52,425 bases of DNA, taken from IMG/VR virus record IMGVR_UViG_3300025000_000136, positions 1 through 52,425 of that record; one strand, given 5' to 3'. Both the position numbers and the translations under genes were made by a program. The notes beneath the pieces are model-generated. The model saw nothing but the letters and a program-made list of their open reading frames with translations. It was not told the DNA's origin and did no database searches. The DNA comes from a virus. How positions within the stretch are numbered: the stretch's first letter is position 1; each line of letters starts with the position of its first letter. Positions 20,088 through 31,658 of the stretch are shown here, one piece after another.

Positions 20088-20663
20088 TTATAATTTAAAA
20101 CATAAAACATTCTTTGGCCTCAAACTATCTTCATCCATATTCCATACTCTACGTCCTGACCAACTATCTTTTGATACAGTCCAATCATTTACATCATTAA
20201 CTCTTTTACAAGTAAACCCTTTTGTTACCCCTACTTGTTTCCAACCTGCTCGAAGATATAAATCTCCTTTACGTGGTAATTCTACAAGAGTTTCGAATCC
20301 TATACAATGATCTCCATATTTATTAAACCAATCAGTAGAAGATCTTTTTATGAATACTTTTAATACAGATGAAGTAAAATTCCTAATAGGATAAGAACCA
20401 TTAATTGGAGAAATATTATAAAAGATATTATTTATTACTTTGTTTATATCTTTTAAGCTTACTCCTAAAAAACTGTTTCTCCCAGGAAGATATCGAGTTG
20501 CAGATCCGGCTACAATATGCCCATAATATAAATCATTATAATATATTGCATAGCAAATATTTCTTCCAACAAATCCTTTAGGTTGAGAATAATGATTTTT
20601 CATTCGTTCTAAGAGTCTTTTATCAGTTCTCTTAGTTTTCTTTAAAATGATTTCATTCTCCAT
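20088..20663 (-). CDS. Mom-like DNA-modification protein (GNAT-type fold)
   Basis: 191 residues. The pattern resembles the Mom/DUF4338-like group: GFVGRNICYAIYYND, then a G-A/S segment, INKVINNIFYNI, SSVLKVFIKRSSTDWFNKYGD, GFETLVE, LYLRAGWKQVG and a final TKGFTCKR with GRRVWN and RPKNVL. In phage Mu, Mom converts adenine to N6-methylcarbamoyl-adenine and blocks restriction. The gene is clearly more AT-rich than the neighbouring methyltransferase, suggesting separate acquisition. No ribosome site is evident; its ATG is 7 bases after the upstream stop. The function is inferred by pattern and is not certain. Confidence 0.65.
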   Translation of the reverse strand: MENEIILKKTKRTDKRLLERMKNHYSQPKGFVGRNICYAIYYNDLYYGHIVAGSATRYLPGRNSFLGVSLKDINKVINNIFYNISPINGSYPIRNFTSSVLKVFIKRSSTDWFNKYGDHCIGFETLVELPRKGDLYLRAGWKQVGVTKGFTCKRVNDVNDWTVSKDSWSGRRVWNMDEDSLRPKNVLCFKL

Positions 20664-23702: not shown

Positions 23703-24125
23703 TTATACTACACGAACTATTTCATTCCTCGGTGCTCCAATCTTAATCGGATTACCTTCATCGTCAGTACTCATGCCATCGTTATAATTGAGTTCTGCAG
23801 TAAACTCCAGGCCAACCAGATCAGACTCGTCAGTTTCCTGGTCTGGATCTAAGCCAAGTGCGCGAAGGAAATCTTTCACCATCCTCCACATGAGGTTGTT
23901 CTTCTCTTCATCATCGCCCTGATAGTCTTTGTAATTGCCATACCAGAGAGTATGAAAGATCGTAGATGCGTTGTCTTCGCCATCGATGTTGATAATGAGC
24001 TGGCATCCATATCGACCAGTTCGCTGAGACTTGGTTTCTTTGACCTTGGTGATGCGGAGGTCATATTCGCCAGCTTCTACGGGTGCCTTGTCAGGGATTT
24101 CGGAAAGATTAGGAATCATTGCCAT
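23703..24125 (-). CDS. DUF669-like single-stranded DNA-binding protein
   Basis: 140 residues. It begins PNLSEIPDKAPVEAGEYDLRITKVKE and continues with OB-fold-like strands (GCQLIINIDGE, STIFHTLWYGN) and an acidic helical region, matching the phage DUF669 SSB group found near Sak4-type recombinases. It ends PRNEIVRVV without the acidic tip of bacterial SSB. It coats ssDNA during replication and recombination. The start has CAAGGAGCAATACC, behind a 100-base A/C-rich leader. Confidence 0.75.
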   Translation of the reverse strand: MAMIPNLSEIPDKAPVEAGEYDLRITKVKETKSQRTGRYGCQLIINIDGEDNASTIFHTLWYGNYKDYQGDDEEKNNLMWRMVKDFLRALGLDPDQETDESDLVGLEFTAELNYNDGMSTDDEGNPIKIGAPRNEIVRVV

Positions 24126-24233
24126 GGTATTGCTCCTTGTTTAGTTTGTTTTGGTTTGGTTCGATTGATTTGTTTTAGTTTGATTTGGTTTATTTGTTTG
24201 TTTGTTTGTTTTTGTTTTCCTCCTTGACTTTGA
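24126..24233 (-). promoter_or_regulatory. unstructured CAAA-repeat leader of ssb
   Basis: On the minus strand this 108-base stretch is almost only A and C with few T and G, built from CAAA, CAAAT and ACAAA units. There is no stable stem. It lies between the stop of a 59-residue gene and the SSB ribosome site. A single-stranded mRNA tract like this could be bound by the SSB itself for autoregulation, as gp32 does in T4, or could enhance translation. Both are inferences. Confidence 0.45.
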
Positions 24234-24413
24234 TTATTCAGCATCAGTAATGCTTTTACTCTTAACAGTTACTACAAGATCAAGATCATTTTCTGGTCTT
24301 GATGAGGCAGAGCTAAGAAGTTCATTTATAAACCGCTCAGGGTCTATATGATTATCATCAATTTCAAAACAGATAATGTAAGGATAACTTTTTGGTTTGA
24401 ATCCGATCTTCAT
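24234..24413 (-). CDS. small acidic protein upstream of ssb
   Basis: 59 residues (starts MKIGFKPKSYPYIICFEIDD), with a strong AAAGGAG site 8 bases before the ATG. A strand, an acidic helix (DPERFINELLSSASS) and a final strand (DLDLVVTVKSKS) suggest a small alpha/beta fold. Its ribosome site starts right after the displaced end of the ATPase gene (stop at 24431), so before the HNH insertion the two genes were adjacent. No family recognised. Confidence 0.7.
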   Translation of the reverse strand: MKIGFKPKSYPYIICFEIDDNHIDPERFINELLSSASSRPENDLDLVVTVKSKSITDAE

Positions 24414-24430
24414 AATTAAAACTCCTTTAA

Positions 24431-24487
24431 TTACGCTGAGATTGATTGTGGAATAACAGTTTTGCCAGCCAAATATGCTGTGGCAAG
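24431..24487 (-). pseudogene. displaced native 3' end of the Sak4-like ATPase gene
   Basis: Translates as LATAYLAGKTVIPQSISA then stop. The ATPase gene now ends LAKAYLAGKTIIPQGI before its stop at 25005. The peptides match at nearly every position, but synonymous codon positions differ widely (for example CTT GCC GGA against TTG GCT GGC). The fragment has no start codon of its own and sits just after the HNH gene. I read it as the original gene end, cut off when the HNH gene arrived with a replacement end. Confidence 0.85.
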
Positions 24488-24505
24488 CTACTTAAAAACA
24501 ATAAT

Positions 24506-25003
24506 TTACACTTCAACCCAGCCCCATTGATCTCCTTTTTTAATATGGGTAATAGTTGAGGCATCTACATCGTATAAAATAGATAACTTTTTTGTTAATC
24601 CTCTTTTATTTTTGTACTTTAACATCCATTTAATTACTTTTACTGCTTCTATATTTAATTTTTGGTGCCCTTGCCTATTATTTTTTACTGAGTCAATAGA
24701 ATTATCATAATGAGTACCAAGAATTAAATGCTTAGGATTTATACATGAAGGATTGTCACATGTATGACGAACTATCTTATTTAAAGGAATGAGTCCATTG
24801 AAAATTAAATAAGATAGTCTATGAACTAAATACATCTTACCACCCCATTTAAGCTGTCGATAATCTGGATTTTTATTTTCTGCTCTCCAATACCAACATT
24901 TATCATTATAAGAAGTGGTAAAGTACTTCTTTGGCACTCTAGATAAAAAACGTTTCTTTAACTCTATAAAACTATCAAAACTTCTAATATCTAGATTTTT
25001 CAT
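24506..25003 (-). CDS. HNH homing endonuclease inserted at ATPase gene end
   Basis: 165 residues, AT-rich. The HNH core is VHRLSYLIFNG, then RHTCDNPSCINPKHLILGTH with the catalytic His, a CxNPxHL zinc-like motif and the Asn-His pair; a C-terminal helix-turn-helix region (TKKLSILYDVDASTITHIKKG) probably gives DNA specificity. The ATG lies one base after the ATPase stop (TAGTATG). Flanking duplicated ATPase coding sequence marks it as a mobile endonuclease. It would cleave phages that lack the insertion. Confidence 0.88.
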   Translation of the reverse strand: MKNLDIRSFDSFIELKKRFLSRVPKKYFTTSYNDKCWYWRAENKNPDYRQLKWGGKMYLVHRLSYLIFNGLIPLNKIVRHTCDNPSCINPKHLILGTHYDNSIDSVKNNRQGHQKLNIEAVKVIKWMLKYKNKRGLTKKLSILYDVDASTITHIKKGDQWGWVEV

Positions 25004-25004
25004 A

Positions 25005-25823
25005 CTAAATTCCTTGAGGAATTATTGTTTTTCCGGCAAGATATGCTTTGGCTAAATCATCCATTGTAACTCCTTCAACCTTTGGCATATCAAAAACCCT
25101 GGACTTAGCCTCGAATGCTAGTTTTTCTGTAAAGAAGATTTGCCTCTTAGTGCCTTGAGTTGTCAACAGGTAGGCTTCATCAAAATCTGCTGCAAGCAAC
25201 TGACGAAATTGACCGTTGACTGCTGGATACCTTGCAACTACTTCTTGATCAGAATTCATAAGTGTATGAAGATGGACAGTTACAGATACAGCGCATGGAA
25301 GTTCCTGGAGAGAACTAACAAGAGTTGTCATCCAGTTCAGCAGTTGGCCCCAATGAGCAGGTGCCATACCCAGTTTCATGTCAATCTTCTTTCCAATACC
25401 AGACGGTGTAATGCCTGACTTTTTCTCAATCTCATGAATCGCTTTCTTGTTAGCGTTAGTCAAGCTGTCCAACACTAACATTCCGCTTTGTTCCTTCAGC
25501 CATTCAAAAAGCCCATTCTTTTCATCTTCCTGGAAAGTGCGCCAGAAATCTGAAAATAACATATCATCATGAGAAAAGTTATCCAGAGTAATATCACTTC
25601 GATTCTTAGATATCTTCTCAATGGTCTTTTCACCTCCTTTGTCAAACATGTAGTAGTGCAAAGGTCCCTTGGTATAGGTGGCTGTGAGGTGGGTCTTGCC
25701 AGATCCGGAATTACCCGCAAGCAGAAATTTTAGATCAAAGATTCGCTTACGTTCAATTAGTTTTGCTTTGTGAAACTTTGTTGTATCAACAGATGGTGTT
25801 GATGCTGGGTCAGGTATGCTCAT
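25005..25823 (-). CDS. Sak4-like P-loop ATPase of phage recombination
   Basis: 272 residues. Walker A is AGNSGSGKT (36-44) and Walker B is MLVLDS (115-120); a SVTVHLHTLM segment (~190) fits sensor regions of RecA-fold phage ATPases. Such Sak4-like proteins load on ssDNA with a DUF669 SSB and anneal or exchange strands. The start has TTAAAGGAG. The last 16 residues appear to be a replacement brought in with the HNH gene. Its neighbour upstream is a RecB-like nuclease, consistent with a recombination module. Confidence 0.8.
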   Translation of the reverse strand: MSIPDPASTPSVDTTKFHKAKLIERKRIFDLKFLLAGNSGSGKTHLTATYTKGPLHYYMFDKGGEKTIEKISKNRSDITLDNFSHDDMLFSDFWRTFQEDEKNGLFEWLKEQSGMLVLDSLTNANKKAIHEIEKKSGITPSGIGKKIDMKLGMAPAHWGQLLNWMTTLVSSLQELPCAVSVTVHLHTLMNSDQEVVARYPAVNGQFRQLLAADFDEAYLLTTQGTKRQIFFTEKLAFEAKSRVFDMPKVEGVTMDDLAKAYLAGKTIIPQGI

Positions 25824-25849
25824 TTAAAACTCCTTTAAATGAATTAATC

Positions 25850-26821
25850 TTAGACTTCAGTCAGTCTCTTCTTTGTTCTTTCCTCGTGAAGCTCCGGGTC
25901 CCATTCGGAATGCATGAAACCTTGAGGAGCCTTTTCCAGCCAGTGCAACGGATTATTGCGAAGTCTGCAAAGATCGTAATAAGAACAAATTGAGCTGAAC
26001 GTAGTGCAGGCATAGCCTGGATTGCGGTGAAAAGATTGCAAGATGTCTGTTCGTTCAGTACAGTTAATCTTGTCTTCTTCGAGAAGGTTTAGGTTAGTCT
26101 GAATTTCTGCTGCATAATGACAAAGATTAGACAGGAAGTGTTCGATTGCAGCAGAGCGTTTAGTGATAGTTATTGGTACAAAATCAATTTTGCTTTTCTG
26201 ACAAAGAGCTATTCGGTATGTAATTGTGGGGATTTTATCATAAAAAATTCGTCCAGCAGTTAAGTAACCATCGGATTGGAATGACATTTCAAAGGTTTGG
26301 GGTGTAGTAGAGTAGATAGCTTTCGCTGTTTTGTGGTCAAGAATATCAATCCCGTCTGCTCCATTGGAAAAGATCAGGTCTATGCGACCAATATAATTTG
26401 GAAGCTTTGCATCTTTGGTTGATAGATCAATAGAGAAAGGTGCTTCAACTGCAAGGATCGAACGATCTTTTATGTCACTGGTAAGGAAGCGGTCCCAATA
26501 TGCTTTATACATATTAGCAGCATGGCCTGGACTCTTGGGGAAGATTGCATCCTCGTTTTTCCAGTAAGGCTCGCCGTCGAGCTTCCAGAGTTTGTTAAAG
26601 CTCTTGATTGAATGTTCTGTTGCTTCGAGAACAGACAGAGATTGTTTGTCTTTCAGAAGGTTGTACGTAGATTCCAGCCCGTAATGCCAACATGAGCCGA
26701 AGACAAGATGGATTGATTGGCCCGCAGGCTTGAGGTTCAGCACATACTGAAACAAGAATCGCCTGGGGCAAGTTAGATAAGTTGATAAGGCTGAGTAATC
26801 GATCTTTTCATGAAAATTCAT
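25850..26821 (-). CDS. PD-(D/E)XK nuclease, Cas4/AddB-like with Fe-S cysteines
   Basis: 323 residues. Nuclease residues appear as D148 (YIGRIDLIF) and D162-x-K164 (ILDHKTAK), with an upstream HYGLE at 46-50. One Cys at 18 (TYLTCPRRF) and three in the C-terminal region (ACTTFSSIC, YYDLC) form the C-(n)-Cx(6)CxxxxC-type set that binds an Fe-S cluster in Cas4, AddB and related enzymes. It would resect DNA ends to give ssDNA for the ATPase and SSB. The start is supported by GAGGTTTCTCAA. Its leader resembles that of the next upstream gene. Confidence 0.85.
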   Translation of the reverse strand: MNFHEKIDYSALSTYLTCPRRFLFQYVLNLKPAGQSIHLVFGSCWHYGLESTYNLLKDKQSLSVLEATEHSIKSFNKLWKLDGEPYWKNEDAIFPKSPGHAANMYKAYWDRFLTSDIKDRSILAVEAPFSIDLSTKDAKLPNYIGRIDLIFSNGADGIDILDHKTAKAIYSTTPQTFEMSFQSDGYLTAGRIFYDKIPTITYRIALCQKSKIDFVPITITKRSAAIEHFLSNLCHYAAEIQTNLNLLEEDKINCTERTDILQSFHRNPGYACTTFSSICSYYDLCRLRNNPLHWLEKAPQGFMHSEWDPELHEERTKKRLTEV

Positions 26822-29309: not shown

Positions 29310-31658
29310 TCATTCCTCATTTTCAATCATCTGATCTACTTGCCATTGTTCGTAAGCAACCTTGCGAGCACGGTCAAAGGTAGAAGGCCAACATGCTTCG
29401 CATTTGCTCAGATCGAGTTGATGCAGCGCTCGACTGGCAGCAACGTACAATATGTTAGTTTCCTCAGTTGTGGGGTTGCCGTTATCGCTTGGGACTTTGA
29501 AATCATTTGCTAGGCGAACCTTTGACCATTCTAGCCCTTTTGCCTTATGCGCGGTAGTTATGGTCACATCGGCTTCGGATGGATCTTCTACAGTTGATTC
29601 AAGAATGTTGAGTAACCGTTCCCTGCCATAAGTTTCGATTAACTTGAGGATTGGCTTAATATCTCCGCCCATCGGAGAATCGGCATATTCAATAAGATCT
29701 GGAAAGTTCTTAAAGAGGAAGAGGTCTGGATGATTGGTATATCCTTTTAGCTTAAGTTGGATTATTGAATTGATCAAGTATGTTAGCTGTTGAGTTCCTC
29801 CGAGAATGTGGACTGACAAGCCTTTGTCAAGAGCATTAATGGTTTCAGCTATAATGCCTTTGTTTGTCCGGCAGAGAATTGCATCTACAGCAGGTAAGGG
29901 TTCATAATGGATTGAAGATTGCACATCGTCGTTACCATGAAATGGCACATACTCGAAACCATATGGATAGTAGCCAGAGATTATGGTGTTTGACATGTTA
30001 GCTATGTCTTCACCAAAACGAAAACTTCTAGTAATGTAGAGCTTTGTAAGATTGTCGTCTTGTAGGGCATTGACCGCGCCTCTCCAACTGTTATGAGTTA
30101 ATAAACCATCTGCATAATATGTATGATGATCATCTACTTCTAAAGAATACACTTTACCATCATAATGTTCTTCTCTTACATATATAGGGACCCAACATTT
30201 ATCAGTTGCCGAATAGTCTCTTTTTCCTTCATGTTGAATAGTATTCTCTAATGGCAACATCATCATACCATCATGTAAATTTGATGCTGCTGTTATAAAT
30301 GGTCTACGGACACCTACAAGAGAATCTGTACCAGATTTCCATAAAGGCATATCTAAAAATAAGCCAAAATGTTTTAAGCAATCTTGTCCTCTAATAGAAT
30401 TATCTCCAATAAGTTCCCAGAAAAAAGAAAGTTCTATTTTATGTTTATCCTGTTCTCTAAAACAAGTTCCTGGAATACCAAACATTGCTTGATAATAAGA
30501 CTCAAATAAATGAGCGTTTTCTGTTGTATCGTGTACAGATAAAATCCATGCAGAATCTGCTTGTTCTACACTAGCTCTTAAACCAAGCCCAAATTGATTT
30601 CGTTGACTCTCATAAAAATAAGGAACTTTTCCAATTCGATACTGATTTCCTTTTTTCATAAGGTAAACAATATGTTTCTTTTTAAGTTTAGTACTTATTT
30701 TTATTATACATTGATGTCTTGGAATATATTTAGATTCATGCATTTGATCAGTAACCACAACAATTAATCTCCCAGAATAATCAACCTCTGTAATACTTGT
30801 AACTTTTCTTCCATTTTTAAATACATGGCTATTATCATATGTTATTATTTTTTCTCCAATTTTTATTTTTTCTATTGGTTTATCGGTAGTAGATTTATAC
30901 CAATGCGCTCTATTTGCAACAGCAATAATTGTTCCAGCAGGTTGACAGTAAATTTGCTGAAACTGGTCACCAACAAAAATCTTTTGACAACTCTGGTTCT
31001 TGATTACCTGAGCGATTACTGGGTTGCTATCCTGGTATTCGTCAAAGAAGATGAAGTCTTTGTTGATGATTGGGTTGGTAAGTGCCCATATTTTCAAGTA
31101 AACATCATGGGTTATTGGCATAGGTTTGGTTACATCTGCCATTTCGTTAAACACAAGATTTGCGTGTTGAATCAAATCTTCTCGCATAACATCCAGATCT
31201 GCGTCTTGTAAGATGGTTAGTTTTGGCAAATGTTTGTACTGCATAACTTCGTCGCTAGAATAACAGTACTTGCGGATCGTATTTAGGATAAGATATCCCT
31301 TGTTGGCTGGACTGTTATAAAGCTGCCAGTCTCCGATATCAAAAGTATCCGCTAGTTGTTTTCCTGTCAATTTGGATAGCTTCTTCCTGTATTTGAATCC
31401 AACTGATCCGTAGGCCAGAGCATGGCCGGTCTTGCAAGTTACAGTGCTGGCGAATTTAGTTGCAGCTTCTTGAGCAAGTAGTTTGTTGAAAGAGATTGAA
31501 AGGCCAAGACCTGGCATTTTACGTGCCATGGCCAGGAGCAAAAAAGTTTTGCCACTGCCTGGAGGCGCCTGAATAGCATAATCGTTGCCGTCAAGGATTT
31601 TGTTTACGTGAGATTCTTGTTCGGCTGTGAGAGTTTTTCCTTTATATTTCATTACCAT
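29310..31658 (-). CDS. UvrD/Rep-type helicase interrupted by an intein
   Basis: 782 residues, of which about 496 are helicase. Walker A is APPGSGKT (31-38) and motif II is FFDEYQDSN (~204-212). Motif III, VGDQFQQIY|SWRGA, is split by an intein at 238-523. Motif V is TTAHKAKGLEW and motif VI EETNILYVAASRA. This places it in superfamily 1A with small phage UvrD/Rep-like helicases. It would unwind DNA in replication or recombination once spliced. GGAGCCTAAGTT supports the first ATG. The unspliced protein would lack a functional QxxR region. Confidence 0.92.
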   Translation of the reverse strand: MVMKYKGKTLTAEQESHVNKILDGNDYAIQAPPGSGKTFLLLAMARKMPGLGLSISFNKLLAQEAATKFASTVTCKTGHALAYGSVGFKYRKKLSKLTGKQLADTFDIGDWQLYNSPANKGYLILNTIRKYCYSSDEVMQYKHLPKLTILQDADLDVMREDLIQHANLVFNEMADVTKPMPITHDVYLKIWALTNPIINKDFIFFDEYQDSNPVIAQVIKNQSCQKIFVGDQFQQIYCQPAGTIIAVANRAHWYKSTTDKPIEKIKIGEKIITYDNSHVFKNGRKVTSITEVDYSGRLIVVVTDQMHESKYIPRHQCIIKISTKLKKKHIVYLMKKGNQYRIGKVPYFYESQRNQFGLGLRASVEQADSAWILSVHDTTENAHLFESYYQAMFGIPGTCFREQDKHKIELSFFWELIGDNSIRGQDCLKHFGLFLDMPLWKSGTDSLVGVRRPFITAASNLHDGMMMLPLENTIQHEGKRDYSATDKCWVPIYVREEHYDGKVYSLEVDDHHTYYADGLLTHNSWRGAVNALQDDNLTKLYITRSFRFGEDIANMSNTIISGYYPYGFEYVPFHGNDDVQSSIHYEPLPAVDAILCRTNKGIIAETINALDKGLSVHILGGTQQLTYLINSIIQLKLKGYTNHPDLFLFKNFPDLIEYADSPMGGDIKPILKLIETYGRERLLNILESTVEDPSEADVTITTAHKAKGLEWSKVRLANDFKVPSDNGNPTTEETNILYVAASRALHQLDLSKCEACWPSTFDRARKVAYEQWQVDQMIENEE
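30090..30947 (-). other. intein in helicase motif III
   Basis: 286 residues, from C238 (CQPAGTIIAV) to the final THN before Ser524, with the splicing block VYSLEVDDHHTYYADGLL near the end. Cys1, the penultimate His-Asn and Ser+1 make a class 1 intein likely to splice. Its centre (about residues 90-160 of the intein) reads IVYLMKKGNQYRIG, then a conserved R, then AHLFE and YGIP, resembling a degenerate GIY-YIG/T5orf172-type nuclease. It is more AT-rich than the flanking helicase. Homing through that domain is inferred. Confidence 0.9.

Follow-up and report, generated by a model that had tools for sequence, protein, structure and literature searches.

Two versions of an ATPase 3' end flank a free-standing HNH gene in a viral genome

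How can an endonuclease gene settle inside the end of another gene and leave that gene whole? The question is raised by a locus in which an ATPase gene runs to a complete 3' end, is followed at once by an HNH gene, and is followed again, beyond the HNH gene, by a second version of the same 3' end. We analysed this locus in the 52,425-base IMG/VR virus record that contains it (the window), where all of its features lie on the minus strand. The reading that we favour, with a probability of about 0.8, is that a free-standing HNH homing-endonuclease gene inserted in the ATPase gene, bringing a 3' end from a diverged lineage and stranding the native tail.

Layout of the locus

The features of the locus are collected in Table 1. 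A single base separates the TAG of the ATPase from the ATG of the HNH gene, and a Shine-Dalgarno-like AAGGA can be read inside the replacement tail, 7 nt before that ATG. The tail ends in the residues PQGI where the remnant has PQSISA, and it is the PQGI form that places AAGGA before the HNH start; judged from the sequence, the replacement tail probably doubles as the HNH ribosome-binding region. On the other side of the HNH gene, the 3' junction of the insertion falls at the native site between ..ATGGATC and AGCTTGCC.. and the spacer measures 18 bases, with an in-frame TAG immediately 5' of the first codon of the remnant (..TTT AAG TAG CTT GCC..). Since the remnant has no start codon and this TAG directly precedes it, it is not translatable as part of the ATPase. 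An earlier note on this DNA, made from the sequence alone, had described a second, start-less ATPase-like tail after the HNH gene, and that description is accurate.

Table 1. Features of the ATPase-HNH locus in the window
Feature	Coordinates	Strand	Evidence
AAA_24 / Sak4-like ATPase CDS, 272 aa, host gene of the element	25005..25823	-	Pfam AAA_24 E=2.5e-14; phrog_124 Sak4-like; 36 viral relatives
Replacement 3' end, LAKAYLAGKTIIPQGI + TAG, foreign allele carried by the element	25005..25055, 5' edge approximate	-	Identity drop against the nearest relative
Free-standing HNH endonuclease gene, 165 aa	24506..25003	-	Pfam HNH_3 41.4 bits (curated cut-off 24.8); phrog_1872 E=8.7e-26
Short spacer from HNH stop to remnant, 3' junction of the insertion	24488..24505	-	Comparison with native ends of L014 and L007
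Stranded native ATPase 3' end, LATAYLAGKTVIPQSISA + TAA, untranslated remnant	24431..24487	-	Match to HNH-less relatives
Native leader TTAAAGGAGTTTTAATT and next gene (59 aa, MKIGFKPKSY..)	24234..24430	-	Directly 3' of the ATPase in HNH-less relatives

The HNH gene is the sole HNH_3 match in the record. Residues H80, C82, C87, N89 and H92, which make up the H..N..H pattern with its paired cysteines, are invariant in the HNH alignment (A1); an HNH profile compared with solved structures gave no match. Searches for group I intron RNA in window positions 24100-25900 returned nothing from Rfam at E<=1, five related loci gave no match at the gathering score, and from its sequence the element does not appear recognisable as an intron-borne endonuclease of the group I type.

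T4 gene 60 uses ribosome bypassing, and a remnant could in principle be functional if it supplied an alternative C-terminus through such bypassing or through intron splicing. HNH genes can be linked with recoding, an example being T4 mobA, which is located within a split topoisomerase gene (PMC2988022). In our locus, such a role is opposed by the lack of an Rfam intron match, by the in-frame stop before the remnant, and by the attached tail, which already completes the ATPase gene; we regard it as highly improbable.

Two further features of the window were recorded. A UvrD/SF1 helicase gene (29310-31658, minus strand) appears to carry an intein: a weak Intein_splicing match, below the cut-off, covers residues 265-523 and lies within a helicase match that spans the insertion. 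A 191-aa open reading frame (20088-20663, minus strand) had no Pfam or PHROGs match.

Native and foreign ends of the ATPase

We compared 36 viral relatives of the ATPase, 35 of which were covered at the 3' end. Eight loci, all without an HNH gene (L002, L005-L008, L014, L016 and L034), finish with ..GKTVIPQSISA and a stop, and then run into the leader seen in the window and a relative of the window's next gene. Several HNH-less loci read ..YLAGKTVIPQSISA, a stop and then TTAAAGGAGTTTTAATTATGAAAATTGGA, the same as the window's remnant; the AGCTTGCCACAGCATAT of the remnant is identical to that of L014, and the uninterrupted native end in L014 and L007 reads ..ATGGATCAGCTTGCC.. HNH-less relatives thus end in the remnant form with the same downstream context, which identifies the remnant as native and the attached tail as foreign. 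The earlier note had predicted that close relatives lacking the HNH gene would end directly in the remnant form, and had named two observations that would speak against its reading: relatives carrying both ends, and a remnant belonging to another gene. None of the 35 related loci had two tails, and nothing in the comparison assigned the remnant to another gene.

The tail and the remnant share 13 of 16 residues, 7 of these 13 being encoded by different codons, and 14 of 48 nucleotides differ. Their local alignment score of 65 lies above every score among 1500 control pairings of mismatched upstream and downstream parts of HNH loci (maximum, 53), which excludes chance; the few control scores of 51-53 probably arise where L037-L039 are paired with one another, these three being identical copies of a single element with the double-tail architecture itself.

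The foreignness of the attached tail is also seen in the identity between the window's ATPase and its nearest relative, which falls from 92% over codons 226-250 to 70% over codons 251-272. Nucleotide identities to the near and outer clades of relatives are 0.77 and 0.69 for the ATPase body, 0.82 and 0.71 for the remnant, and 0.73 and 0.71 for the tail, while native tails of the near clade average 0.84 identity to each other. By this comparison, the remnant and the ATPase body both group with the near clade, unlike the attached tail. An outer-clade origin of the tail was considered and rejected, the tail being nearly equidistant from both clades; it is so short that its donor cannot be placed.

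These data bear on the suggestion in the earlier note that the replacement end is recoded and thereby escapes the enzyme. Its underlying observation, near-identical peptides with widely different synonymous positions, holds at 13 of 16 residues and 7 of 13 codons, but the level of difference is ordinary between lineages. Against 12 near relatives, same-residue codons differ at 83 of 152 positions for the tail, at 74 of 172 for the remnant and at 32-56% of positions for the ATPase body; the range given for the body against relatives in general is 32-59%. Recoding of the tail in excess of lineage divergence was tested for and not found. The tail thus looks like an ordinary foreign allele, with no need for special recoding.

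The same divergence weighs on the idea that insertion of the HNH gene simply duplicated the tail in place, through repair or a tandem duplication, and that the attached copy drifted afterwards. This would be a simple by-product of break repair, yet in the window it is the attached, translated copy that has diverged, and the untranslated remnant that keeps the native form.

The ATPase-type arrangement is represented by one example in a single IMG/VR record, as might be expected of an assembly error or chimera in a metagenomic virus contig. The phage isolate collection searched contained neither DNA relatives nor ATPase-protein relatives of the locus, and no double tail was seen at 12 HNH loci of phage isolates (T3/T7-like, Vibrio, Citrobacter, Salmonella and others). 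Against an assembly artefact, both flanks of the insertion are collinear with native relatives and the architecture recurs in other contigs, although some of these are identical copies of one another (L037-L039, and likewise L152 and L153), and an artefact strikes us as very improbable.

Recurrence in DNA polymerase and NinB genes

Among 97 homologous HNH loci screened for doubled tails, the architecture was found also in L037-L039 and L095; L108 is uncertain, since the stretch around its HNH gene is doubled but the copy 3' of it is a long one, perhaps a paralogous gene. In L037, the HNH gene lies 3' of a family A DNA polymerase gene that ends in ISNFNQESIDQAINKIGVL and a stop, and the native ISKFTQEDCDKAIEKIGF with its stop follows the HNH gene. 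The HNH proteins of L037-L039 are 48-49% identical to that of the window. L095 has a more distant HNH gene and the same architecture at NinB; close empty sites for this NinB were not found, all relatives being below 60% identity.

A second HNH, 43% identical to the window's, occupies the same polymerase site in L152, L153 and L169, where it is accompanied by a substitute tail of its own and by the native remnant. These proteins score below the Pfam HNH_3 threshold, yet the H, N, H and cysteine positions are kept in the alignment. The two different HNHs share the 3' junction in the polymerase gene to within a few bases. Most of 34 further polymerase relatives have the native end and no HNH gene, and L143 and L165 provide empty sites with the same downstream gene. 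Compared with its relatives L138, L140, L144 and L145, L037 has an identity of 0.89 in the polymerase body and 0.90-0.94 in the remnant, but only 0.67-0.69 in the tail.

Between L152 and L169, identity is 81% over the polymerase body, rises to 98% across the tail and 99% across the HNH gene, and then falls to 92% immediately downstream and ~73% beyond that. With tail and HNH at 98-99% and the polymerases at 81%, tail and HNH travel as a unit. An identity profile of this kind is what homing with co-conversion of the flanks would leave.

In these polymerase loci, too, duplication in place fits poorly: the L037 tail is far more diverged from its relatives than the body is, and the L152/L169 tail is conserved with the HNH and not with the polymerase. 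A point in its favour comes from L150 and L151, where a near-exact copy of the polymerase tail occurs with no HNH gene. We consider in-place duplication improbable overall. The L150/L151 copy was noted in its own right: a 64-aa open reading frame just after the polymerase stop ends in KECDKAIEKIGF, matching the native polymerase tail at 11 of 12 residues, and is possibly another kind of tail-copying insertion. In L166, the polymerase match takes 3450 bases for 839 residues, so that the gene contains ~930 extra bases, which may be an intein; the L166 tail, DISIFNQESVDKAIEKIGF, is similar to the substitute tails, and there is no HNH gene 3' of it.

Ordinary modular exchange, in which illegitimate recombination would have joined a block of distant ATPase tail and HNH gene without any site-specific endonuclease, has somewhat more to recommend it, though we still hold it to be unlikely. 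Many unrelated small genes lie just after the polymerase and ATPase stops of relatives, so that these places may exchange genes anyway. Such exchange does not readily account for one polymerase junction, within a few bases, for two different HNHs, for the tail and HNH forming an island of identity in L152/L169, or for members of the HNH subfamily at one repeated site in a ligase gene of three viruses. As to the small genes themselves, unrelated ones start a few bases after the ATPase stop in L010, L011, L015, L017, L027 and L030 and after the polymerase stop in L147-L162, and both places look like exchange hotspots.

The ligase site emerged from an alignment-based scan, which located relatives of the window HNH, at 49-57% identity, in split genes or between genes. 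In L173, L176 and L180, from three viruses, an NAD ligase gene is split at one repeated place, the N-terminal part reaching residue 327-328 and the C-terminal part starting from ~356 (numbering of the window's intact ligase). In L175, a polymerase gene is split by an HNH gene into residues 1-230 and 235-839. A new start for the second half of the gene is visible in L173, L176 and L175; in L174, the HNH relative appears to sit between genes. In related viruses, one HNH subfamily thus shows tail replacement, gene splitting and apparent residence between genes.

Given the native remnant, the foreign tail, the empty polymerase sites and the joint movement of tail and HNH, the central proposal of the earlier note, that an HNH element inserted near the end of the ATPase gene and brought a substitute end, is supported; its reading as a whole is supported in part, special recoding of the tail not being borne out.

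Proposed mechanism and known systems

We propose that the HNH gene inserted ~19 codons before the native ATPase stop and carried with it a version of the 3' end that had been acquired from, or had evolved in, a diverged lineage. Translation of the ATPase would then run through the foreign tail, keeping the host protein whole, and the Shine-Dalgarno-like sequence of the tail would allow the HNH gene to be translated by coupling. The native tail would stay behind as an untranslated remnant before the next gene, whose own leader is retained. In co-infecting relatives, the HNH protein would nick or cut the uninterrupted native end, and repair would copy tail and HNH into the cut relative. The element itself should be immune, as the site copies that it carries are split on the remnant side, where insertion would have destroyed the target, and diverged on the tail side.

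The closest parallel is with mobile ORFs of fungal mitochondria that carry a C-terminal duplication, known from atp6, atp9, cox2 and nad3 of Glomus sp. and from atp6 of Allomyces macrogynus (PMC3630166). There, as in the window, an endonuclease ORF lies near the 3' end of a gene with a diverged in-frame C-terminus, and the native C-terminus follows downstream (PMC3630166); in Glomus atp6, the two versions of the C-terminus share 63.5% of their DNA sequence and 91% of their protein sequence (PMC3630166). The window likewise has a substitute C-terminus and a native one downstream, and ORF-less relatives have the native end only, as they do for the polymerase. The inserted fungal C-terminus is transcribed with the gene (PMC3630166), while the window arrangement is known from DNA. 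The fungal elements are mitochondrial, with a LAGLIDADG enzyme in Glomus atp6, whereas the window has a phage setting, an HNH enzyme and a tail of ~17 codons that probably serves HNH translation as well. The phage record and the HNH enzyme mean that the element works like the fungal class but is not a member of it by descent.

In mixed infections, free-standing HNH genes of the T4 type pass to the progeny at high frequency, with no intron involved (PMC2988022). Among them, mobE and mobA resemble the window gene in being free-standing and in having a start that abuts the upstream stop (UAAUGA for mobE) (PMC2988022). The T4 enzymes, however, sit between genes or split them, and according to the review of these genes they cleave at least hundreds of bases away from where they are inserted (PMC2988022); we found no case of tail replacement leaving a remnant in that review (PMC2988022). 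The ligase splits of L173, L176 and L180 and the polymerase split of L175 resemble those of Aeh1 nrdA-mobE and T4 gene 60/39-mobA (PMC2988022). Unlike the Aeh1 and T4 split genes (PMC2988022), the window's host protein stays in one piece.

An analogy, and only that, may be drawn with engineered HomeR home-and-rescue drives, in which a homing nuclease inserted in an important gene comes with a replacement for the coding end that it interrupts (PMC7968924). HomeR relies on Cas9 and a guide RNA (PMC7968924), whereas the window element is natural, uses an HNH enzyme and has no guide RNA. We see an even chance that the HNH subfamily constitutes a natural home-and-rescue drive that targets ends and domain joints of replication and recombination genes, persisting by a substitute end or by splitting at a tolerant joint, with neither intron nor intein, and that this is new to phages. 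No description of phage tail replacement was found in the literature searched, a search that reached few subscription papers.

Replacing the interrupted gene end would be a further way for phage homing endonucleases to inhabit important genes, alongside introns, inteins, gene splitting and intergenic residence, which are already known. The varied habits of the subfamily in related viruses allow natural comparisons of the ways in which such elements come to be tolerated, and the locus offers clear empty-site, donor and recipient sequences. The phage element is the counterpart of the fungal mitochondrial mobile ORFs, with the same working principle in a different enzyme family and host, and it extends to phages a mechanism known from fungal mitochondria.
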